Assembly: GCA_000953695.1 (NCBI GenBank)
Contig: LN554847.1
Coordinates: 809,801 to 873,800, forward strand
Reading direction: 5' to 3'
Length of the DNA stretch: 64,000 nt
Source: Aliivibrio wodanis
Lineage (GTDB): Bacteria; Pseudomonadota; Gammaproteobacteria; Enterobacterales; Vibrionaceae
Position 1 is the stretch's first letter, and the number at the start of each line of letters is the position of its first letter. A program made the position numbers and the translations under genes. Below the pieces are notes generated by a model. It was not told the DNA's origin. It worked only from the letters and a program-made list of their open reading frames with translations, and searched no databases. Below, piece by piece: positions 2,079 to 48,951 of this stretch.

Positions 2079-3132
2079 CCTAGATCCCAAGAATAACCGA
2101 CACACTTTGGTATAGATTAGAGAGTCAGTTGCCTATAAGCTTCAAGCTCTCACACAATCAACTAAGGTAACCACATGGGACACCAATATAAGCAACTGAC
2201 ACTAAGTGAAAGATACCAGATTGAAGCTTGGAATACACATAGTATTTCTGCTCGGGAAATAGGACAAAAATTAAAACGGAGCAATGGCTCCATTTCAAGG
2301 GAATTACGACGCTGTCCTGTTGGAAGTTATTCTGCCGAGCAAGCGCATAAACATGCTTTTCAAAAAAGAACACTTTCAATTAAGCACACAAAGTGTGGCC
2401 AAAAGAATAAGAAAATAATTCAAATATACCTACAACTTGGTTGGAGCCCAGAGCAAATATCTGGACGAATGCATAAAGAAAAAATAGAAAATACAATATG
2501 TTGCAGTACTATTTACAATGTAGTTAAAAGAGAGCATTGGCAAAGAATGCTTGCTCGAAAAGGTAAAAAATACAAACAGCGTAAAGGTGTAGAAGCTGGA
2601 GCAAGACTAATTCCCAACCGCGCTGATATCTCTCTCCGGCCTGCTATTGTTGACGATAACTCAGAAATTGGCCACTGGGAAGGTGATACTGTTTATGGTC
2701 AAGATGGGTATTTAGTCACTATGGTAGAGCGAGTATCTAAGCTATTAGTTACTTGCAAAGTACGTAGCAAGTCTAAAAAAGCAGTCACTCGTGGGATAAA
2801 TCGCATGATGAAGCCCTTTAAAGAACTTTGCAAAACAATCACATTTGATAATGGCGGAGAGTTTGCGGGTCATGCTAAGATAGCTAAGCATCTGAACTGT
2901 GACATTTATTTTGCTAAACCTTACCATTCCTGGCAACGAGGTTTGAATGAAAATACCAATGGTTTACTAAGGCGTTTTTTCCCAAAGGGAATGGCCATTG
3001 GAGAACTTGCTGCAAAAGAGGTTAAACAGGCAGAGTTTTTGATTAATTCGAGACCTAGAAAGGCATTAAATTTTCTGAGTCCGAGTGAGTTTTTAAGCGG
3101 TAAGCGTGTGTCGGTTATTGTTACGATCTAGC
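2079..3132 (+). mobile_element. IS30-family element, copy 2 (complete)
   Basis: 1,054-bp element with ~25-bp imperfect terminal repeats: left CCTAGATCCCAAGAATAACC, right (reverse complement) GCTAGATCGTAACAATAACC, both continuing GACACAC. The transposase stop codon lies inside the right repeat. Flanks carry a 3-bp duplication AAC, so this is a simple insertion into the DUF2971 cassette gene. The protein is unchanged in all complete copies, which points to a recent burst. Confidence 0.95.
2175..3131 (+). CDS. IS30-family transposase
   Basis: 318 residues. An N-terminal helix-turn-helix (about residues 5-50, ISAREIGQKLKRSNGSISREL) precedes an rve-type DDE core. Catalytic residues are D171 (HWEGDTVYG), D225 (TFDNGGEF) and E259 (LNENTNGLLRRFFPKG), the standard IS30 pattern. 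It cuts and joins the element ends. The TAG stop falls in the right terminal repeat. Confidence 0.97.
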   Translation: MGHQYKQLTLSERYQIEAWNTHSISAREIGQKLKRSNGSISRELRRCPVGSYSAEQAHKHAFQKRTLSIKHTKCGQKNKKIIQIYLQLGWSPEQISGRMHKEKIENTICCSTIYNVVKREHWQRMLARKGKKYKQRKGVEAGARLIPNRADISLRPAIVDDNSEIGHWEGDTVYGQDGYLVTMVERVSKLLVTCKVRSKSKKAVTRGINRMMKPFKELCKTITFDNGGEFAGHAKIAKHLNCDIYFAKPYHSWQRGLNENTNGLLRRFFPKGMAIGELAAKEVKQAEFLINSRPRKALNFLSPSEFLSGKRVSVIVTI

Positions 3133-5938: not shown

Positions 5939-6992
5939 CCTAGATCCCAAGAATAACCGACACACTTTGGTATAGATTAGAGAGTCAGTTGCCTATAAGC
6001 TTCAAGCTCTCACACAATCAACTAAGGTAACCACATGGGACACCAATATAAGCAACTGACACTAAGTGAAAGATACCAGATTGAAGCTTGGAATACACAT
6101 AGTATTTCTGCTCGGGAAATAGGACAAAAATTAAAACGGAGCAATGGCTCCATTTCAAGGGAATTACGACGCTGTCCTGTTGGAAGTTATTCTGCCGAGC
6201 AAGCGCATAAACATGCTTTTCAAAAAAGAACACTTTCAATTAAGCACACAAAGTGTGGCCAAAAGAATAAGAAAATAATTCAAATATACCTACAACTTGG
6301 TTGGAGCCCAGAGCAAATATCTGGACGAATGCATAAAGAAAAAATAGAAAATACAATATGTTGCAGTACTATTTACAATGTAGTTAAAAGAGAGCATTGG
6401 CAAAGAATGCTTGCTCGAAAAGGTAAAAAATACAAACAGCGTAAAGGTGTAGAAGCTGGAGCAAGACTAATTCCCAACCGCGCTGATATCTCTCTCCGGC
6501 CTGCTATTGTTGACGATAACTCAGAAATTGGCCACTGGGAAGGTGATACTGTTTATGGTCAAGATGGGTATTTAGTCACTATGGTAGAGCGAGTATCTAA
6601 GCTATTAGTTACTTGCAAAGTACGTAGCAAGTCTAAAAAAGCAGTCACTCGTGGGATAAATCGCATGATGAAGCCCTTTAAAGAACTTTGCAAAACAATC
6701 ACATTTGATAATGGCGGAGAGTTTGCGGGTCATGCTAAGATAGCTAAGCATCTGAACTGTGACATTTATTTTGCTAAACCTTACCATTCCTGGCAACGAG
6801 GTTTGAATGAAAATACCAATGGTTTACTAAGGCGTTTTTTCCCAAAGGGAATGGCCATTGGAGAACTTGCTGCAAAAGAGGTTAAACAGGCAGAGTTTTT
6901 GATTAATTCGAGACCTAGAAAGGCATTAAATTTTCTGAGTCCGAGTGAGTTTTTAAGCGGTAAGCGTGTGTCGGTTATTGTTACGATCTAGC
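5939..6992 (+). mobile_element. IS30-family element, copy 3
   Basis: Same length and ends as copy 2. Inserted in the last codons of the HEPN-like gene. Flanking trinucleotides CTC/ATC are not a perfect duplication. Confidence 0.95.
6035..6991 (+). CDS. IS30-family transposase
   Basis: Protein identical to the 2175-3131 copy, with all three catalytic acids retained. Confidence 0.97.
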   Translation: MGHQYKQLTLSERYQIEAWNTHSISAREIGQKLKRSNGSISRELRRCPVGSYSAEQAHKHAFQKRTLSIKHTKCGQKNKKIIQIYLQLGWSPEQISGRMHKEKIENTICCSTIYNVVKREHWQRMLARKGKKYKQRKGVEAGARLIPNRADISLRPAIVDDNSEIGHWEGDTVYGQDGYLVTMVERVSKLLVTCKVRSKSKKAVTRGINRMMKPFKELCKTITFDNGGEFAGHAKIAKHLNCDIYFAKPYHSWQRGLNENTNGLLRRFFPKGMAIGELAAKEVKQAEFLINSRPRKALNFLSPSEFLSGKRVSVIVTI

Positions 6993-22867: not shown

Positions 22868-23921
22868 CCTAGATCCCAAGAATAACCGACACACTTTGGT
22901 ATAGATTAGAGAGTCAGTTGCCTATAAGCTTCAAGCTCTCACACAATCAACTAAGGTAACCACATGGGACACCAATATAAGCAACTGACACTAAGTGAAA
23001 GATACCAGATTGAAGCTTGGAATACACATAGTATTTCTGCTCGGGAAATAGGACAAAAATTAAAACGGAGCAATGGCTCCATTTCAAGGGAATTACGACG
23101 CTGTCCTGTTGGAAGTTATTCTGCCGAGCAAGCGCATAAACATGCTTTTCAAAAAAGAACACTTTCAATTAAGCACACAAAGTGTGGCCAAAAGAATAAG
23201 AAAATAATTCAAATATACCTACAACTTGGTTGGAGCCCAGAGCAAATATCTGGACGAATGCATAAAGAAAAAATAGAAAATACAATATGTTGCAGTACTA
23301 TTTACAATGTAGTTAAAAGAGAGCATTGGCAAAGAATGCTTGCTCGAAAAGGTAAAAAATACAAACAGCGTAAAGGTGTAGAAGCTGGAGCAAGACTAAT
23401 TCCCAACCGCGCTGATATCTCTCTCCGGCCTGCTATTGTTGACGATAACTCAGAAATTGGCCACTGGGAAGGTGATACTGTTTATGGTCAAGATGGGTAT
23501 TTAGTCACTATGGTAGAGCGAGTATCTAAGCTATTAGTTACTTGCAAAGTACGTAGCAAGTCTAAAAAAGCAGTCACTCGTGGGATAAATCGCATGATGA
23601 AGCCCTTTAAAGAACTTTGCAAAACAATCACATTTGATAATGGCGGAGAGTTTGCGGGTCATGCTAAGATAGCTAAGCATCTGAACTGTGACATTTATTT
23701 TGCTAAACCTTACCATTCCTGGCAACGAGGTTTGAATGAAAATACCAATGGTTTACTAAGGCGTTTTTTCCCAAAGGGAATGGCCATTGGAGAACTTGCT
23801 GCAAAAGAGGTTAAACAGGCAGAGTTTTTGATTAATTCGAGACCTAGAAAGGCATTAAATTTTCTGAGTCCGAGTGAGTTTTTAAGCGGTAAGCGTGTGT
23901 CGGTTATTGTTACGATCTAGC
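22868..23921 (+). mobile_element. IS30-family element, copy 4
   Basis: Complete, with a perfect 3-bp target duplication CTA on both sides. Simple insertion into a cassette gene. Confidence 0.96.
22964..23920 (+). CDS. IS30-family transposase
   Basis: 318 residues, same protein as the other complete copies; D171, D225 and E259 present. Confidence 0.97.
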   Translation: MGHQYKQLTLSERYQIEAWNTHSISAREIGQKLKRSNGSISRELRRCPVGSYSAEQAHKHAFQKRTLSIKHTKCGQKNKKIIQIYLQLGWSPEQISGRMHKEKIENTICCSTIYNVVKREHWQRMLARKGKKYKQRKGVEAGARLIPNRADISLRPAIVDDNSEIGHWEGDTVYGQDGYLVTMVERVSKLLVTCKVRSKSKKAVTRGINRMMKPFKELCKTITFDNGGEFAGHAKIAKHLNCDIYFAKPYHSWQRGLNENTNGLLRRFFPKGMAIGELAAKEVKQAEFLINSRPRKALNFLSPSEFLSGKRVSVIVTI

Positions 23922-24185: not shown

Positions 24186-24479
24186 CTACGCCATAGCAAA
24201 ATTGATCGTGTGCACCTTAGTTAAATTCACGTTTTGTTTTGCTTGCCATAGATCGTAATTGTCTTGCATTGTTAACCAACTTTCAGGCGTACGACCTAGT
24301 GATTTTGAAAGACGTAATGCCATTTCAGGTGAAATTGAACTCTTACCCTTTATCACTCGATTTAGAGTTGAAGCCGCAACATCAAGTTGTTTAGCAACAA
24401 AGCGACAGCTATAGCCAAATGGTTCCATATAAACGTCATGGATAAACTCACCTGGATGTGGGGGATTGTACATAGCCAT
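24186..24479 (-). CDS. higA: HigA-type antitoxin, second copy
   Basis: 97 residues, differing from the first copy only at residue 4 (Tyr for His). Overlaps the higB stop by one base. The two antitoxins should be able to neutralise each other's toxin. Confidence 0.93.
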   Translation of the reverse strand: MAMYNPPHPGEFIHDVYMEPFGYSCRFVAKQLDVAASTLNRVIKGKSSISPEMALRLSKSLGRTPESWLTMQDNYDLWQAKQNVNLTKVHTINFAMA

Positions 24480-24757
24480 TAATGGTAATCCTCGTAATTT
24501 AAAATGTAAGCATTACCATCGATAAATTCGAAAGTAACACGCCAGTTACCATTTACTGTAATTGACCAAATTCCATCTCTATCCCCTTTCAAAGGATGAA
24601 GTTTGAAACCCGGCAAATCAACATCATCAATAATGGTTGCAGTGTCTATCGCGGCTAATTGCATTCTCAATTTGCGATCATGTTTCGCTTGAATGCCCGC
24701 TTTACTGCCAGTCTCAAAAAACTTTTTAAGACCTTTGTGCTTAAATGTTTTAATCAT
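24479..24757 (-). CDS. higB: HigB-type toxin, second copy
   Basis: 92 residues with the same sequence as the toxin at 8624-8902. No ribosome site precedes the ATG. The pair was probably duplicated as a whole cassette, because its attC subtype is the same. Confidence 0.93.
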   Translation of the reverse strand: MIKTFKHKGLKKFFETGSKAGIQAKHDRKLRMQLAAIDTATIIDDVDLPGFKLHPLKGDRDGIWSITVNGNWRVTFEFIDGNAYILNYEDYH

Positions 24758-24792: not shown

Positions 24793-24954
24793 GTTTCAAT
24801 AAAAAATATAACGCCTGCATAACACGTTTGCTACGATACAGATTAAGCTCAATTTACCACTTAATCTGGTAAACCCAAAGAAATCTAGAATGCCGAATGT
24901 AGCAAATCGTGTTGATGCATTTGTATGGATAATAAACACTCAATTAGGGTAAAG

Positions 24955-25120
24955 TGAGACCCAGACTTTAGCTGCAACTAAAGTTGATTTATACAGTAGT
25001 TCGGTTGATGCATGGCTCCTCTATCGAGAGACCGATAACAAACGCGAACGCTGTATAAACTCCAAGCCTACACTCGAATAGTCGACTGGGTCTCGAACCC
25101 GTATTATAGCAAACAAGAGT
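24955..25120 (+). ncRNA. Predicted bridge RNA of IS110 copy 1
   Basis: Structures in order: a 5' hairpin CTTTAG/CTAAAG (24966-24983), then a 9-bp stem TTTATACAG/CTGTATAAA (24988-24996, 25051-25059) enclosing an internal loop. The loop's 5' side has GTTGATGCAT (25004-25013), the same as the left half of the attC target. Its 3' side has ATAACAAA (25035-25042), complementary to the right half TTTGTTAT. A second hairpin GGGT/ACCC (25088-25100) is preceded by ATAGTCG (25078-25084), which matches the element's right end, as a donor guide would. The target-guide match is clear; the right donor guide is uncertain. Confidence 0.8.
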
Positions 25121-25129
25121 AAGCTTATT

Positions 25130-26086
25130 ATGAATAATCCTACATTTCAAAGCATCAATGTCGGTGTTGATACCGGTAAAACTCAACTAGACATTTTCAT
25201 CAGACCTATAGGCCTGTTCTTCTCTGTTTCTAATGACGATAAAGGCATAAAAGAAGCCATTACAACTATTAAGAAACATAAACCAGAACGTATCGTTATT
25301 GAGGCAACAGGTAGACTTGAAGTCCCCTTTGTTCTTGCTTGCACAAAGGCTAAGCTTCCATACGTTGTTGCTAACCCTATTCATGTAAGACGATTTGCTG
25401 GCGCTATTGGACAAATAGCCAAAACAGATAAATTAGACGCCCAATTAATTGCATTGTACTCGGAAAGAATTGAACCCCCACTGTCAACTCTAAAGCCTGA
25501 AAACATAAGGCTAATGAGCGATTTAGTCATTCGTAGAAATCAATTATTATCCATGCAAACTATGGAAAAGAATCGCCTTCAAATACTCCCTAAAGAACTA
25601 GCGATGACCATTAAACCAATATTGACAACCTTCAAAAATCAAATCCAAAAAATAGAAGAAAAAATCATTAAGATTATTGAATCTTGTGATGAATATAAGC
25701 ATAAAAATGAAATCCTTCAGAGCGTTCCTGGCATAGGAAAAGTTGCTGCTGCATCGCTAATAAGTAATCTCCCTGAGCTTGGAAGTATTAGTAATAAAAA
25801 AGCGTCAGCTTTGGTTGGAGTAGCCCCTATGAATCGGGACAGTGGTCGCTACAAAGGTCACCGAAAAATCAAAGGAGGCCGGAAGCAAGTGCGGACGGTT
25901 CTCTATATGGCCATGATGTCAGCAATGCAATGTAACCCCGTTTTCAAGTCGACTTACAGTCGCCTCGTAGCTGAAGGAAAACCCAAAAAACTCGCTATTA
26001 TAGCCTGTGTTAGAAAGATGGTTGTCATACTTAATTCAATGATACGAGATGGTGTCATGTGGAATGAAAACCACGCTAATAATTAG
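25130..26086 (+). CDS. IS110-family DEDD recombinase
   Basis: 318 residues. The RuvC-like N-terminal domain carries D14 (NVGVDTGKT), E58 (IVIEATG), D100 and D103 (AKTDKLDAQLIA). The C-terminal transposase_20 domain has QSVPGIGKVAAASLI and ALVGVAPMNRDSGRYKGHRKIKGG, including the presumed catalytic Ser. This family uses an RNA guide to recombine a circular donor into a target. Confidence 0.95.
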   Translation: MNNPTFQSINVGVDTGKTQLDIFIRPIGLFFSVSNDDKGIKEAITTIKKHKPERIVIEATGRLEVPFVLACTKAKLPYVVANPIHVRRFAGAIGQIAKTDKLDAQLIALYSERIEPPLSTLKPENIRLMSDLVIRRNQLLSMQTMEKNRLQILPKELAMTIKPILTTFKNQIQKIEEKIIKIIESCDEYKHKNEILQSVPGIGKVAAASLISNLPELGSISNKKASALVGVAPMNRDSGRYKGHRKIKGGRKQVRTVLYMAMMSAMQCNPVFKSTYSRLVAEGKPKKLAIIACVRKMVVILNSMIRDGVMWNENHANN

Positions 26087-26108
26087 TTATTGACACCATA
26101 GTCGTTTG

Positions 26109-26588
26109 TTATAACCGTTTTTCCATGCGTGACAAATCCCAACTCTCACCATCAAATGATAAGCTATTAGTTACCTGCTCAAATTCTACAAAACCCAGTT
26201 TTTCGTAACATGAAATAGCTAATTTATTGTGGCTGAAAACACCTAATGTCAGTAAATTAGCTTTGTAATTAACCTGAGCCTTTTCAATAAGTAGCTGTAG
26301 CATGGTTTGAGCTAAATTCTGGCCTCGATATTCAGGTGAGATAAATACGCGACAGATACGAAATTCATTAACTGAAACTTGGTAAAGCTCCACAAAACCA
26401 ACCGGATTATTCTCAACAGTAAATAGAAATGGAAACACCTGTAACTGCTTACAATGAGTTTCAATTTGTTCGTGAGTAAGAGGATATTTATAAGCTGGCC
26501 CGCCCCACAAATAACAAAGTTTTTCGCTATCTATCCAGGCAGTAAGCAGATCATAATCCTTATGTTCAAAAGCCTCTAATTCCATCAT
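26109..26588 (-). CDS. GNAT-family N-acetyltransferase
   Basis: 159 residues. Two ATGs adjoin at the start (26588 and 26585), and AGAGG fits the second better. Motif A is CRVFISPEYRGQNLAQTMLQLLIEKA and the C-terminal part is LTLGVFSHNKLAISCYEKLGFVEFE. Substrate unknown. Its attC is now split by IS110 copy 1. Confidence 0.88.
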   Translation of the reverse strand: MMELEAFEHKDYDLLTAWIDSEKLCYLWGGPAYKYPLTHEQIETHCKQLQVFPFLFTVENNPVGFVELYQVSVNEFRICRVFISPEYRGQNLAQTMLQLLIEKAQVNYKANLLTLGVFSHNKLAISCYEKLGFVEFEQVTNSLSFDGESWDLSRMEKRL

Positions 26589-26656
26589 TTCCTCTTGAGG
26601 TTATAACGCCTGCATAACACGTTTGCTACGTAAGCGCTCAATGAACTAGTGATGCT

Positions 26657-28179
26657 TTACTCGGCATCACTTAGTTCAACGAGCCACGGCATAAGATCCG
26701 ACATATCATCGGCTGGATCACGTTTAGGTAATTCCGTAAATAGATACTGGAAGTAATAATATGGGTTAATGTCATTCGCGCGGCATGTCATTACCAAGCT
26801 ATACAAGTTAGCACTGGCCTTCGCTCCATCAACAGACGTTGAGAACATCCAGTTTTTTCTACCTGTAGTAAACGGCCTAATGTCTCTTTCTGTGACATTA
26901 TTATCGATGCTGATATCACCATCCTCAAGATAGGTGAGTAATTTAGGCCATTGCTTTTGAGTGTAGGCGATAGCTTTACCTAATGCCCCTTTGGGTAAGA
27001 CATTTTGAACATCAAGCCACGCTTTAAATTCACTCAATATTGGCTCAGCTTCCTGTTTTCTTATCTTCTGTCGCTCATTTGCAGATAATCCCTTTGCCTT
27101 TCTTTCTACGCCGTAAAGTTTGGCAATGAAGTTGAGTGCTTTTTCTGGTTTTCCCGCTTTTTTAGAGGGTGATGCTTTTTGTGCATCGGTGAACTTTCTA
27201 CGAGCATGGGCCATACATGCGGCTTGTGTCACTGTATCTAATGTGTCGTATACGCTATAGCCATCAGAGAGTAAGTACCCTGAGTAATCACCTAAAAAAT
27301 CTTTTGCACACGTTGCTGCACGGCTTGGGTGATAATCATAGATAACTACAGGGTTTTTAATGAATTCACCACTACGGTAAACCCACATATAAGATTTGGT
27401 TTGCGCTTTTCTATCTTCTTCGCGTAGCACTTGTACTGTGGTTTCATCTGCGCAGATAAGCTTTTCATTAAGCAGCCTTGATTTCATCTCATCAATGACT
27501 GGTTTCACTTTATTACCCAACTGAACACACCAATTAGCAAGCGTCGCTCGGCTTATATCAATATCAGACCGATTTAGGATATCTACTTGGCGATACAGTG
27601 GCAGTGCATCTACGTATTTTGCTGTGACTACCGCCGCGAAAGCTCCTGCGCTTCCCATGCTTTTGGGGATCATACTAGCGGGCTTTGGTGCGGTGATAAT
27701 TTTGGATTGGGTTTGCGTTTTTTCACATTGGCGACAAGCGTATTTAGTGCGTTTGTGGCGAATGACTGTGACCTTTTGAGGAATAATTTTAAGCTCTTCT
27801 GAGGTTTCAACGCCACATTCATGCAATGGTTCATCACAACATTCACAATAAGGTGCATTGAGTTCATGCTTGTGTACCTCACGTTCAAGCTCTTTTGGTA
27901 GAGGTTTGCGACCTGTTTTTTCTTCTCATCATTCGATTTAGGGAGCGAGTTTTGCTGCTCAGCTTCATTGAAAGTACCTTTTGGTACTTTTTCACTTTGC
28001 GATGAGAAGCGCTTGGATTTATTTAGGTTTAATTGCTCAACCAAGAGTGCAACTTGAGTTTTTAATTCAGCGACTTCTTCTTGCTTGGCAACAAGCAGCT
28101 TCTCTTTGGCTTCATTTTGATTATGAAGCTCAAGTAGCATCGCTTTTAGTTGCTCAATATCATTAGGAAGATCGGTCAT
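26657..28179 (-). pseudogene. tnpC: IS66 tnpC with a 1-bp frameshift
   Basis: Reads as in copy 1 from 28179 until NDEKKK, where six A residues replace seven (27916-27921, T-run on the plus strand). The frame is lost until it is picked up again in the remaining ~390 codons (26657-27826). The catalytic domain is otherwise preserved. A slippage event on the A-run could restore some full-length product; without it this copy cannot move on its own. Confidence 0.88.
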
Positions 28180-28264
28180 GCTTTAGCTCAAGGTTGTTTA
28201 ATTACCCTAAGTGTGACATCGAAAAAGGATCGTTCAAGTCCAATTTGATGATCATTATCAGCGA

Positions 28265-28609
28265 TCACACTTCTAGGTTAAATAACGGCTTATGAGCTTT
28301 AGCATGATCTAAAGTCAGTCCAGATAAAAGCCAGTTGAGTTGTTGTCTGCTAATGTGGAGCGCACCATCAATATTGGGGGTTGGCCATTTGAACGTCCCT
28401 TTTTCTAAGCGACGATAATAAAGCCAAAAACCATTGGTATCCCAAAACAAGATCTTGAGTTTATCTCGATTGCGGTTACAAAAAATAAACCAGGCTTCAC
28501 TGAATGGGTCCATTTCCAGCGTTTCGGCGACAATGAGTGATAAGCCATCAATGGATTTTCTCATGGCGGTGACACCAACGACGAGGTAAACCTTTCCTGA
28601 CTGTATCAT
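28265..28609 (-). CDS. tnpB: IS66 accessory protein TnpB
   Basis: 114 residues, differing from copy 1 by Asp-to-Ala in VVGVTAMRKSIDG. That Asp is part of the family signature, so activity may be affected. Confidence 0.93.
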   Translation of the reverse strand: MIQSGKVYLVVGVTAMRKSIDGLSLIVAETLEMDPFSEAWFIFCNRNRDKLKILFWDTNGFWLYYRRLEKGTFKWPTPNIDGALHISRQQLNWLLSGLTLDHAKAHKPLFNLEV

Positions 28610-28905
28610 TGCAATGCATCAACCCAATGTTTTATTTGTTTGGAATTAAGGTTTGCTGGTAACTCGGCACGAAGGCCATTATTACATGTCAGCACCACAA
28701 TATTTGACGGCTCTTGTGTTGGCTCTGTCACGATAATGGGGTGAATTTTTGTTGTGACTTCTGACTCGCTGAGTTTCTTGGACCAGTAATAAAGGGTTTG
28801 GTAGCTTATTTCGTTATCAATACAAAATTGCTTGATAGATAGGTTACTCTCTTTCTGTTGATCTAAAATATTAGCCCAATGGTCGCGCTTACTTTGTTGA
28901 TTCAT
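28606..28905 (-). CDS. tnpA: IS66 accessory protein TnpA
   Basis: 99 residues; SKKLSESEVTT here against SKKLSELEVTT in copy 1. ATG 28905 follows GGAGG, and the stop overlaps tnpB. Confidence 0.93.
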   Translation of the reverse strand: MNQQSKRDHWANILDQQKESNLSIKQFCIDNEISYQTLYYWSKKLSESEVTTKIHPIIVTEPTQEPSNIVVLTCNNGLRAELPANLNSKQIKHWVDALQ

Positions 28906-29087
28906 AATACCTCCGATTAAAAAGATACTATGGCAAAGCATGCTTAATATTGATATGTGTGGTTAGTTAAGCGCTTACTTTGCTACGATACAGACTTACC
29001 TGAATTTTACTACCTTAACCACTGAAACTAAAGGCAAACTAACAACGCCGAATGTAGCAAATCGTGTTGATGCATTTGTTATATTGC

Positions 29088-32927: not shown

Positions 32928-33108
32928 AGATATTCTTCCTCAATTGACCTTTTAGGGTATAACGCCTGCATAACACGTTTGCTACGATACAGACTTAGCT
33001 GAATTTTAACGCCTTAATCACTGAAACTAAAGGCAAACTGACAACGCCGAATGTAGCAAATCGTGTTGATGCATTTGTATGGATAATAAACACTCAATTA
33101 GGGTAAAG

Positions 33109-33274
33109 TGAGACCCAGACTTTAGCTGCAACTAAAGTTGATTTATACAGTAGTTCGGTTGATGCATGGCTCCTCTATCGAGAGACCGATAACAAACGCG
33201 AACGCTGTATAAACTCCAAGCCTACACTCGAATAGTCGACTGGGTCTCGAACCCGTATTATAGCAAACAAGAGT
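33109..33274 (+). ncRNA. Predicted bridge RNA of IS110 copy 2
   Basis: Same leader as copy 1, shifted by 8,154 bp: target guides GTTGATGCAT (33158-33167) and ATAACAAA (33189-33196) inside the TTTATACAG/CTGTATAAA stem. Confidence 0.8.
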
Positions 33275-33283
33275 AAGCTTATT

Positions 33284-34240
33284 ATGAATAATCCTACATT
33301 TCAAAGCATCAATGTCGGTGTTGATACCGGTAAAACTCAACTAGACATTTTCATCAGACCTATAGGCCTGTTCTTCTCTGTTTCTAATGACGATAAAGGC
33401 ATAAAAGAAGCCATTACAACTATTAAGAAACATAAACCAGAACGTATCGTTATTGAGGCAACAGGTAGACTTGAAGTCCCCTTTGTTCTTGCTTGCACAA
33501 AGGCTAAGCTTCCATACGTTGTTGCTAACCCTATTCATGTAAGACGATTTGCTGGCGCTATTGGACAAATAGCCAAAACAGATAAATTAGACGCCCAATT
33601 AATTGCATTGTACTCGGAAAGAATTGAACCCCCACTGTCAACTCTAAAGCCTGAAAACATAAGGCTAATGAGCGATTTAGTCATTCGTAGAAATCAATTA
33701 TTATCCATGCAAACTATGGAAAAGAATCGCCTTCAAATACTCCCTAAAGAACTAGCGATGACCATTAAACCAATATTGACAACCTTCAAAAATCAAATCC
33801 AAAAAATAGAAGAAAAAATCATTAAGATTATTGAATCTTGTGATGAATATAAGCATAAAAATGAAATCCTTCAGAGCGTTCCTGGCATAGGAAAAGTTGC
33901 TGCTGCATCGCTAATAAGTAATCTCCCTGAGCTTGGAAGTATTAGTAATAAAAAAGCGTCAGCTTTGGTTGGAGTAGCCCCTATGAATCGGGACAGTGGT
34001 CGCTACAAAGGTCACCGAAAAATCAAAGGAGGCCGGAAGCAAGTGCGGACGGTTCTCTATATGGCCATGATGTCAGCAATGCAATGTAACCCCGTTTTCA
34101 AGTCGACTTACAGTCGCCTCGTAGCTGAAGGAAAACCCAAAAAACTCGCTATTATAGCCTGTGTTAGAAAGATGGTTGTCATACTTAATTCAATGATACG
34201 AGATGGTGTCATGTGGAATGAAAACCACGCTAATAATTAG
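33284..34240 (+). CDS. IS110-family DEDD recombinase
   Basis: Protein the same as 25130-26086 throughout its 318 residues, with D14, E58, D100 and D103 present. Confidence 0.95.
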   Translation: MNNPTFQSINVGVDTGKTQLDIFIRPIGLFFSVSNDDKGIKEAITTIKKHKPERIVIEATGRLEVPFVLACTKAKLPYVVANPIHVRRFAGAIGQIAKTDKLDAQLIALYSERIEPPLSTLKPENIRLMSDLVIRRNQLLSMQTMEKNRLQILPKELAMTIKPILTTFKNQIQKIEEKIIKIIESCDEYKHKNEILQSVPGIGKVAAASLISNLPELGSISNKKASALVGVAPMNRDSGRYKGHRKIKGGRKQVRTVLYMAMMSAMQCNPVFKSTYSRLVAEGKPKKLAIIACVRKMVVILNSMIRDGVMWNENHANN

Positions 34241-34262
34241 TTATTGACACCATAGTCGTTTG

Positions 34263-38838: not shown

Positions 38839-39892
38839 CCTAGATCCCAAGAATAACCGACACACTTTGGTATAGATTAGAGAGTCAGTTGCCTATAAGC
38901 TTCAAGCTCTCACACAATCAACTAAGGTAACCACATGGGACACCAATATAAGCAACTGACACTAAGTGAAAGATACCAGATTGAAGCTTGGAATACACAT
39001 AGTATTTCTGCTCGGGAAATAGGACAAAAATTAAAACGGAGCAATGGCTCCATTTCAAGGGAATTACGACGCTGTCCTGTTGGAAGTTATTCTGCCGAGC
39101 AAGCGCATAAACATGCTTTTCAAAAAAGAACACTTTCAATTAAGCACACAAAGTGTGGCCAAAAGAATAAGAAAATAATTCAAATATACCTACAACTTGG
39201 TTGGAGCCCAGAGCAAATATCTGGACGAATGCATAAAGAAAAAATAGAAAATACAATATGTTGCAGTACTATTTACAATGTAGTTAAAAGAGAGCATTGG
39301 CAAAGAATGCTTGCTCGAAAAGGTAAAAAATACAAACAGCGTAAAGGTGTAGAAGCTGGAGCAAGACTAATTCCCAACCGCGCTGATATCTCTCTCCGGC
39401 CTGCTATTGTTGACGATAACTCAGAAATTGGCCACTGGGAAGGTGATACTGTTTATGGTCAAGATGGGTATTTAGTCACTATGGTAGAGCGAGTATCTAA
39501 GCTATTAGTTACTTGCAAAGTACGTAGCAAGTCTAAAAAAGCAGTCACTCGTGGGATAAATCGCATGATGAAGCCCTTTAAAGAACTTTGCAAAACAATC
39601 ACATTTGATAATGGCGGAGAGTTTGCGGGTCATGCTAAGATAGCTAAGCATCTGAACTGTGACATTTATTTTGCTAAACCTTACCATTCCTGGCAACGAG
39701 GTTTGAATGAAAATACCAATGGTTTACTAAGGCGTTTTTTCCCAAAGGGAATGGCCATTGGAGAACTTGCTGCAAAAGAGGTTAAACAGGCAGAGTTTTT
39801 GATTAATTCGAGACCTAGAAAGGCATTAAATTTTCTGAGTCCGAGTGAGTTTTTAAGCGGTAAGCGTGTGTCGGTTATTGTTACGATCTAGC
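38839..39892 (+). mobile_element. IS30-family element, copy 5
   Basis: Complete element, but its flanks AGA and CCT do not match. It joins the middle of the HAD gene to the middle of a different attC, so DNA between them was lost or exchanged. Confidence 0.95.
38935..39891 (+). CDS. IS30-family transposase
   Basis: 318 residues; same sequence and catalytic triad as at 2175-3131. Confidence 0.97.
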   Translation: MGHQYKQLTLSERYQIEAWNTHSISAREIGQKLKRSNGSISRELRRCPVGSYSAEQAHKHAFQKRTLSIKHTKCGQKNKKIIQIYLQLGWSPEQISGRMHKEKIENTICCSTIYNVVKREHWQRMLARKGKKYKQRKGVEAGARLIPNRADISLRPAIVDDNSEIGHWEGDTVYGQDGYLVTMVERVSKLLVTCKVRSKSKKAVTRGINRMMKPFKELCKTITFDNGGEFAGHAKIAKHLNCDIYFAKPYHSWQRGLNENTNGLLRRFFPKGMAIGELAAKEVKQAEFLINSRPRKALNFLSPSEFLSGKRVSVIVTI

Positions 39893-47897: not shown

Positions 47898-48951
47898 CCT
47901 AGATCCCAAGAATAACCGACACACTTTGGTATAGATTAGAGAGTCAGTTGCCTATAAGCTTCAAGCTCTCACACAATCAACTAAGGTAACCACATGGGAC
48001 ACCAATATAAGCAACTGACACTAAGTGAAAGATACCAGATTGAAGCTTGGAATACACATAGTATTTCTGCTCGGGAAATAGGACAAAAATTAAAACGGAG
48101 CAATGGCTCCATTTCAAGGGAATTACGACGCTGTCCTGTTGGAAGTTATTCTGCCGAGCAAGCGCATAAACATGCTTTTCAAAAAAGAACACTTTCAATT
48201 AAGCACACAAAGTGTGGCCAAAAGAATAAGAAAATAATTCAAATATACCTACAACTTGGTTGGAGCCCAGAGCAAATATCTGGACGAATGCATAAAGAAA
48301 AAATAGAAAATACAATATGTTGCAGTACTATTTACAATGTAGTTAAAAGAGAGCATTGGCAAAGAATGCTTGCTCGAAAAGGTAAAAAATACAAACAGCG
48401 TAAAGGTGTAGAAGCTGGAGCAAGACTAATTCCCAACCGCGCTGATATCTCTCTCCGGCCTGCTATTGTTGACGATAACTCAGAAATTGGCCACTGGGAA
48501 GGTGATACTGTTTATGGTCAAGATGGGTATTTAGTCACTATGGTAGAGCGAGTATCTAAGCTATTAGTTACTTGCAAAGTACGTAGCAAGTCTAAAAAAG
48601 CAGTCACTCGTGGGATAAATCGCATGATGAAGCCCTTTAAAGAACTTTGCAAAACAATCACATTTGATAATGGCGGAGAGTTTGCGGGTCATGCTAAGAT
48701 AGCTAAGCATCTGAACTGTGACATTTATTTTGCTAAACCTTACCATTCCTGGCAACGAGGTTTGAATGAAAATACCAATGGTTTACTAAGGCGTTTTTTC
48801 CCAAAGGGAATGGCCATTGGAGAACTTGCTGCAAAAGAGGTTAAACAGGCAGAGTTTTTGATTAATTCGAGACCTAGAAAGGCATTAAATTTTCTGAGTC
48901 CGAGTGAGTTTTTAAGCGGTAAGCGTGTGTCGGTTATTGTTACGATCTAGC
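47898..48951 (+). mobile_element. IS30-family element, copy 6, at the array boundary
   Basis: Complete element with non-matching flanks AAT and TAT. Left side is integron cassette DNA and right side a chemotaxis gene, so it marks a rearrangement joint rather than a simple insertion. Confidence 0.95.
47994..48950 (+). CDS. IS30-family transposase
   Basis: 318 residues, unchanged from the other complete copies, DDE triad complete. Confidence 0.97.
   Translation: MGHQYKQLTLSERYQIEAWNTHSISAREIGQKLKRSNGSISRELRRCPVGSYSAEQAHKHAFQKRTLSIKHTKCGQKNKKIIQIYLQLGWSPEQISGRMHKEKIENTICCSTIYNVVKREHWQRMLARKGKKYKQRKGVEAGARLIPNRADISLRPAIVDDNSEIGHWEGDTVYGQDGYLVTMVERVSKLLVTCKVRSKSKKAVTRGINRMMKPFKELCKTITFDNGGEFAGHAKIAKHLNCDIYFAKPYHSWQRGLNENTNGLLRRFFPKGMAIGELAAKEVKQAEFLINSRPRKALNFLSPSEFLSGKRVSVIVTI

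Follow-up and report, generated by a model that had tools for sequence, protein, structure and literature searches.

An insertion element of the IS110 group in Aliivibrio wodanis very probably carries, at its left end, a bridge RNA in which two guides recognise the integron recombination site attC and a third segment pairs with the right end of the element. We studied it in a stretch of 64,000 nucleotides (positions 809,801–873,800 of contig LN554847.1, assembly GCA_000953695.1), referred to below as the window. At the level of sequence, the analysis establishes insertion in attC, a conserved RNA fold, and covariation both of guide with site and of guide with element end.

An IS110-group element with five near-complete genomic copies

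When compared with a second copy and with unoccupied attC sites, the element, about 1185 bp long, maps to 24921–26105 on the + strand within attC, its ends being ambiguous within TTTGT. An earlier note on this DNA had put the start at 24925; the actual start lies at about 24921–24924. To its left, one half of the target site in attC, GTTGATGCAT followed by TTG (24911–24923, + strand), is the same as in many attC tails of the window, and leads directly into TATGG (24924–24928, + strand), which forms a 5-bp inverted repeat with CCATA at 26096–26100. On the right, the end of the element with TTGACA and ATAGTCG (26090–26104, + strand) reads CCATAGTCG and then TTTGTTAT (26105–26112), so that the other half of the target, TTGTTAT, which is the R′ box, occupies 26106–26112 (+ strand). 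The second copy, delimited by copy comparison at 33075–34259 (+ strand) in another attC of the window, has an identical layout at an offset of 8154 bases, with TATGG at 33078 and ATAGTCG at 34252–34258.

The earlier note had described two copies in two attC sites and had suggested listing all genomic insertion sites. That listing upholds the attC location but raises the number of near-complete copies in the whole genome to five, the gene of one having several stops. Four of the five lie in attC with the left half GTTGATGCAT and with differing right-side sequences, while the fifth, on contig 1 (L003), sits in an attC of another type, where 4 or 6 of the 10 left-guide positions agree, depending on the register.

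The element encodes a 318-residue DEDD transposase of the IS110 family (25130–26086, + strand), assigned from Pfam, from NCBIfam NF033542 and from the IS621 and ISCro4 structures. Specifically, the domains DEDD_Tnp_IS110 and Transposase_20 both score above the Pfam cut-off, the model for RNA-guided IS110 proteins (NF033542) gives 208 bits against a cut-off of 140, and the solved-structure matches at E ≤ 0.01 are two sequences, IS621 and ISCro4. Residues D14, E58, D100, D103 and S238 are invariant among 19 aligned sequences, that of the window included, and have like residues in IS621, whose catalytic set we take to be three Asp, one Glu and one Ser. Three Aliivibrio genomes encode proteins 97–99% identical to the transposase. 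In a protein tree computed without three stop-containing proteins, a 45-row clade has a support of 97/95, which is only indicative given the long outgroup branches.

The non-coding parts, about 206 nt upstream of the transposase gene and about 19 nt downstream, follow the IS110-group arrangement, and the protein falls within the 315–330 residues given for the short transposases of the IS492/IS621/Piv branch in the available text of PMC11187229. Subterminal inverted repeats of IS1111 elements measure 7–17 bp according to the available text of PMC11208160; by eye, the ends of this element hold only the 5-bp CCATA/TATGG. Nor is the RNA downstream as in IS1111, the covariance model described below placing it upstream of the gene in 5/5 own copies. 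One IS1111-attC trait is present, namely insertion in attC, again in 5/5 own copies (arm-pairing p 0.01–0.02).

Features of attC at the insertion sites

The element lies in a cassette array rich in attC-like repeats, in which one 85-nt attC tail was counted 43 times. The window contains the empty 17-mer target 28 times on its + strand and the genome contains it 55 times, and a control with the pattern read backwards gives 0. Among the relatives sampled below, TTGTTA follows the insertion in 95/100 cases, and the arm motif TAACRYY is found 35–165 bases upstream at 55/98 sites, against 8.9 in shuffled sequence (maximum 16). At the remaining 43/98 sites the canonical 5′ arm motif is absent, and some of these show variant arms by eye.

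In an anchored arm test on 79 sites, the mean pairing of a site with its own upstream arm is 10.3, compared with 8.85 for swapped arms (s.d. of the mean 0.10) and 8.1 for shuffled arms; site by site, 23/79 reach p ≤ 0.01 and 38/79 reach p ≤ 0.05, leaving 41/79 short of 0.05. A first palindrome test for attC was too coarse for arms that, as in attC, pair with imperfections, and was set aside with 8/79 sites at p ≤ 0.01 and 14/79 at p ≤ 0.05.

Several other features of the neighbourhood were recorded. Genes for a HigB-like toxin and an HTH antitoxin (24186–24757) stand directly before the element-bearing attC. An IS66-family element (26610–28985) lies inside an attC arm, with TTTGCTACG on both sides, which by eye looks like a target duplication. 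An element of about 1054 bp with an HTH_38 and rve transposase, presumably IS30-like, is present in five near-identical copies (2079–3132, 5939–6992, 22868–23921, 38839–39892 and 47898–48951); their flanks differ and share no common target by eye, and the copy at 38839 abuts attC on its right. Outside the main array, exact 17-mer attC tails occur on contigs C3 (53956–55469) and C5 (1831–3121) of the same genome, and an inverted cluster of them lies on C2 (618082–626297, minus strand); these possibly represent mobile or satellite cassette arrays.

The leader carries a conserved RNA fold

The predicted core of the bridge RNA spans 24956–25094 (+ strand), is closed by GAGACCCAG/CTGGGTCTC, and was delimited by folding, by the consensus of relatives and by a covariance model. 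It begins with a hairpin, ACTTTAGCTGCAACTAAAGT (24965–24984, + strand), in which 4/7 pairs are changed on both sides among relatives, followed by the predicted target-binding arm (24988–25059, + strand), in which 6/12 helix pairs are so changed. The 9-bp stem of this arm, TTTATACAG at 24988–24996 and CTGTATAAA at 25051–25059, is present as the earlier note had claimed, and so are the two loop halves that it had singled out. The first half, GTTGATGCAT (25004–25013, + strand), is the putative left target guide, which agrees with the left flank at 10/10 positions and varies with the flanks of relatives. The second, ATAACAAA (25035–25042, + strand), is the complement of TTTGTTAT and the putative right target guide, which matches the right junction across relatives. 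Third in order along the leader stands ATAGTCG (25078–25084, + strand), identical to the right end of the element and read as the left donor guide.

As a single sequence, the leader folds better than 200/200 shuffles (z −3.95). An alignment was then made of 51 of the 80 distinct leaders, thinned at 96% identity; leaders L024, L034 and L062 were skipped by the search pattern. Its unguided RNAalifold consensus contains the outer stem, the first hairpin and the long arm with both target guides. Counted on a defined structure of 34 pairs, 12/34 pairs show compensatory changes on both sides and 98.1% of cells are paired, against 91.6% in shuffled alignments, with 0/500 shuffles as high, and slid versions of this structure reach only 28–47%. 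The donor-guide stretch is unpaired in the consensus and lies in a multi-branch loop; a hairpin across it in the single-sequence fold is absent from the consensus and was discarded. A search of Rfam with 1601 bases returned, up to E 5, a sole match, a chance one in a neighbouring cassette (E 3.9).

Just 5′ of the donor guide, the stretch at 25068–25073, CTACAC (alignment columns 115–122), is variable. It is clade-specific in relatives (ACCACAC, AAAATAC, ATAAACC and others), and no partner was found for it.

The RNA recurs before related transposase genes

Relatives were drawn from 150 genomes of the family, 32 of which had a match, and from 394 genomes of the order, 25 of which had one, the own genome being included in each case. 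The best 80 of 221 loci from a collection of genome contigs and three loci from viral contigs were added. Search patterns yielded 110 distinct combinations of element and insertion. The first pattern missed 24 loci, several of them with contig ends, partial genes or altered leaders, and a wider pattern recovered at least 10 of these. One close relative (L098) lies on a contig binned as Maribacter (Bacteroidota), which may reflect faulty binning or a jump between hosts.

A covariance model of the leader across homologues, a check proposed in the earlier note, bears out the conserved fold: it matched 17/17 clade loci absent from its training, and within the own genome it found exactly the five own copies. 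Loci L134–L138, whose proteins are 51–54% identical, were matched at E values of about 1e-21 to 1e-24, and the outgroup IS110 loci L144–L147 gave 0/4 matches at E ≤ 1. Furthermore, when 321 genomes of the class were searched with the RNA model alone under the stricter filters of Infernal, three loci were found besides the own genome, and in all three the RNA stands directly before an IS110-type reading frame. In L154 the frame is open and the flanks are attC-like; in L155 it runs off the contig, and in L153 it is broken by one stop, the left flank resembling an attC tail by eye in both.

The target guides covary with the insertion sites

The left guide agrees with the left flank of its own insertion at a mean of 6.81 of 10 positions over 98 insertions, against 5.17 when guides and sites are permuted, and 0/2000 permutations are as good. 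When the left guide is slid along the flank, the score peaks only at the two expected neighbouring offsets (4.96 and 4.65, against 1.75–3.33 elsewhere). Both registers are in use, 47 insertions favouring one and 27 the other, with 8 ties among 82 rows, and since both occur, the spacing of the guides seems to tolerate one base. The overlap of one nucleotide between the two target guides described in the earlier note holds for the window, whereas other members show two; the overlap seen here is one of two forms.

The right guide corresponds exactly to seven bases of the right junction in 96/100 elements, the mismatches being L028, L032, L070 and L102 (4/100). At the eighth position of this guide, the right junction is complementary in 90/91 cases and the left junction in only 58/83, so that some of the matched right-junction bases may stem from the end or core of the element rather than from the target. 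Taken together, left guide against left flank and right guide against right junction, the target guides covary across relatives.

The fit of the left guide is partial at some sites. The earlier note had named homologues with different loops in the same attC as evidence that would count against its reading; mostly, different loops go with correspondingly different sites, but 5/86 insertions of the first data set score 4/10 or less. In one of these, L012, the flank is masked; the other four, L017, L113, L117 and L142, fit at 3–4 of 10. The own copy on contig 1 reaches 6/10 at best, a score that is more frequent than any other in the 86 rows. Such insertions in attC despite a partial guide are what would be expected if the transposase itself recognised attC, as sequence or as folded hairpin, the resemblance of the leader being a by-product. 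We regard that explanation as improbable: it leaves the covariation of left guide and flank unaccounted for, and it does not accommodate L079, an element in a Colwellia metagenome-assembled genome in which both target guides are changed. The site of L079 matches the changed guides at 9/10 positions on the left and at seven bases on the right (CTTATTA). No attC arms were seen there, although about 300 bases upstream there is an attC tail, and the site looks non-attC.

A second explanation, that element and host attC lineages are merely alike within host groups and that the covariation reflects shared ancestry without any guiding, draws on the resemblance of guides and sites within such groups and on the fact that the permutations ignore the tree and hence the relatedness of the elements. 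It is still less probable than recognition by the transposase. The signal survives when one row is kept for each distinct left guide (n = 52; 6.67 against 4.72 permuted; 0/2000 as good), and also within classes of the same right guide (again 0/2000). Moreover, isolated odd guides match odd sites: besides L079, the unusual left guides of L098, L106 and L114 match unusual sites at 8–10 of 10, and that of L102 agrees with its site at 9/10, counted by hand, even though the right junction of this element is mismatched. A single right-guide change in L096 (Shewanella hanedai) is accompanied by the matching change in the right junction (TTCGTTA). The preferred reading remains that the two segments act as target guides.

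The donor guide covaries with the right end

ATAGTCG had been proposed in the earlier note as a donor guide, and its covariation with the right end across relatives bears this out. The two agree exactly over 7 nt in 96/101 elements, with a mean of 6.95/7 against 6.19 permuted and 0/2000 permutations as good. Each of the forms ATAGTCG, ATAGTCT, ATAGTCA, ATACTCG, ATAGCCC, ATAGTCC and ACAGTCA has its counterpart in the right end. In L013, L028, L036, L109 and L125 donor guide and right end differ within the 7 nt, which may reflect chimeras, drift or tolerated mismatches. That the leader caught a piece of attC by chance, or is attC-like for another reason such as an integrase decoy, would explain a 10-nt stretch identical to the local attC, but can hardly be credited when that stretch occupies a constant position within the conserved fold and, in other lineages, varies along with the insertion site, and when the donor guide tracks the right end.

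By eye, no convincing complement to the left end was found that could serve as right donor guide; in the flanks inspected the left end hardly varies, so that covariation could not reveal one. Two candidates considered by eye, CTCCAAG on the 5′ side of the donor guide and stretches on its 3′ side, were rejected as too inconstant in distant members.

Proposed mechanism

In the mechanism that we propose, a transposase carrying the RNA would bind attC at two boxes. The right guide would pair with the R′ box (NTTGTTA), which is conserved, and the left guide with the neighbouring L box, which is specific to each lineage, while ATAGTCG would pair with the right end and so hold the donor circle. Recombination would take place at a short shared core, beside which we take the integrase crossover point to lie, and insertion in one orientation would split the R′ box from the rest of attC. 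We infer that the RNA is transcribed, bound by the transposase and programs target choice. Transcription would probably start from a promoter formed by end joining in the circle, where the joined ends would read TTGACA-17 bp-GATAAT; in IS621, a natural sigma-70 promoter spans the joined ends (PMC11208160, available text).

After insertion, the left side has GTATGGA in place of the R′ box, and the right side keeps the R′ box but not its hairpin; from this arrangement, insertion should disable the occupied attC.

Relation to known systems

RNA-guided insertion is already established for the IS110 family, and the suggestion in the earlier note that a bridge RNA is here first linked with attC was too strong. 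As set out in the available text of PMC11187229, the RNAs of ISKpn4 and ISPst6 have published guides that match attC, and such guides are predicted for ISPa25; all three are IS1111 elements with the RNA downstream. Where the available text of PMC11616780 states that attC sites were disrupted by IS110, it refers to ISPa21, of the IS1111 group. In the open-licence literature searched, whose silence is weak evidence, we recognised no description of elements of the IS110 group that sit in attC and carry the RNA upstream. The apparent novelty is an IS110-group lineage of Gammaproteobacteria that homes to attC and in which the RNA precedes the gene.

Compared with IS621, as far as the available text of Durrant et al. 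2024 (PMC11208160) describes it, the element has a related transposase, a long left end in which the RNA precedes the gene, both target guides in one arm, a left donor guide that equals the donor, and a short inverted repeat around the donor. It differs in its target, attC of integrons instead of REP elements, in that a right donor guide was not found, and in the placement of the donor guide in a multi-branch loop, described in that text for many IS1111 members but not for IS621. With the seekRNAs of ISKpn4 and ISPst6 (PMC11187229, available text) it shares two short segments that match both strands of an attC end, and a fixed place of insertion in attC. Those elements, in contrast, have the RNA downstream and long inverted repeats, whereas here the RNA is upstream and the repeat is 5 bp. 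The top-strand segment comes first in their RNA and the order is opposite here, although strand-naming conventions may differ. Group II introns are likewise mobile at attC, but are another kind of element.

Implications

We consider it likely that a mostly marine gammaproteobacterial lineage of the IS110 group evolved RNA-guided homing to attC apart from the IS1111-attC elements. If so, one guide would stay matched to the R′ box, which is nearly universal, the second would be tuned to the L box of the host lineage, and the element would follow integrons across hosts, with an occasional change of both guides leading to another site, as in L079. Such a lineage may have been overlooked, because a survey of Shewanella integrons that met IS110 elements saw, in its available text, no insertion sequence interrupting attC (PMC9229058).

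The 52 distinct left guides whose site could be read form a natural series of bridge RNAs tuned to variants of one kind of site, and provide comparative evidence on the guide positions and spacings in use. For integrons, the reading would mean that cassette arrays are host to RNA-guided parasites of at least two different builds; each could break an attC site and perhaps freeze a cassette in place, possibly reversibly.
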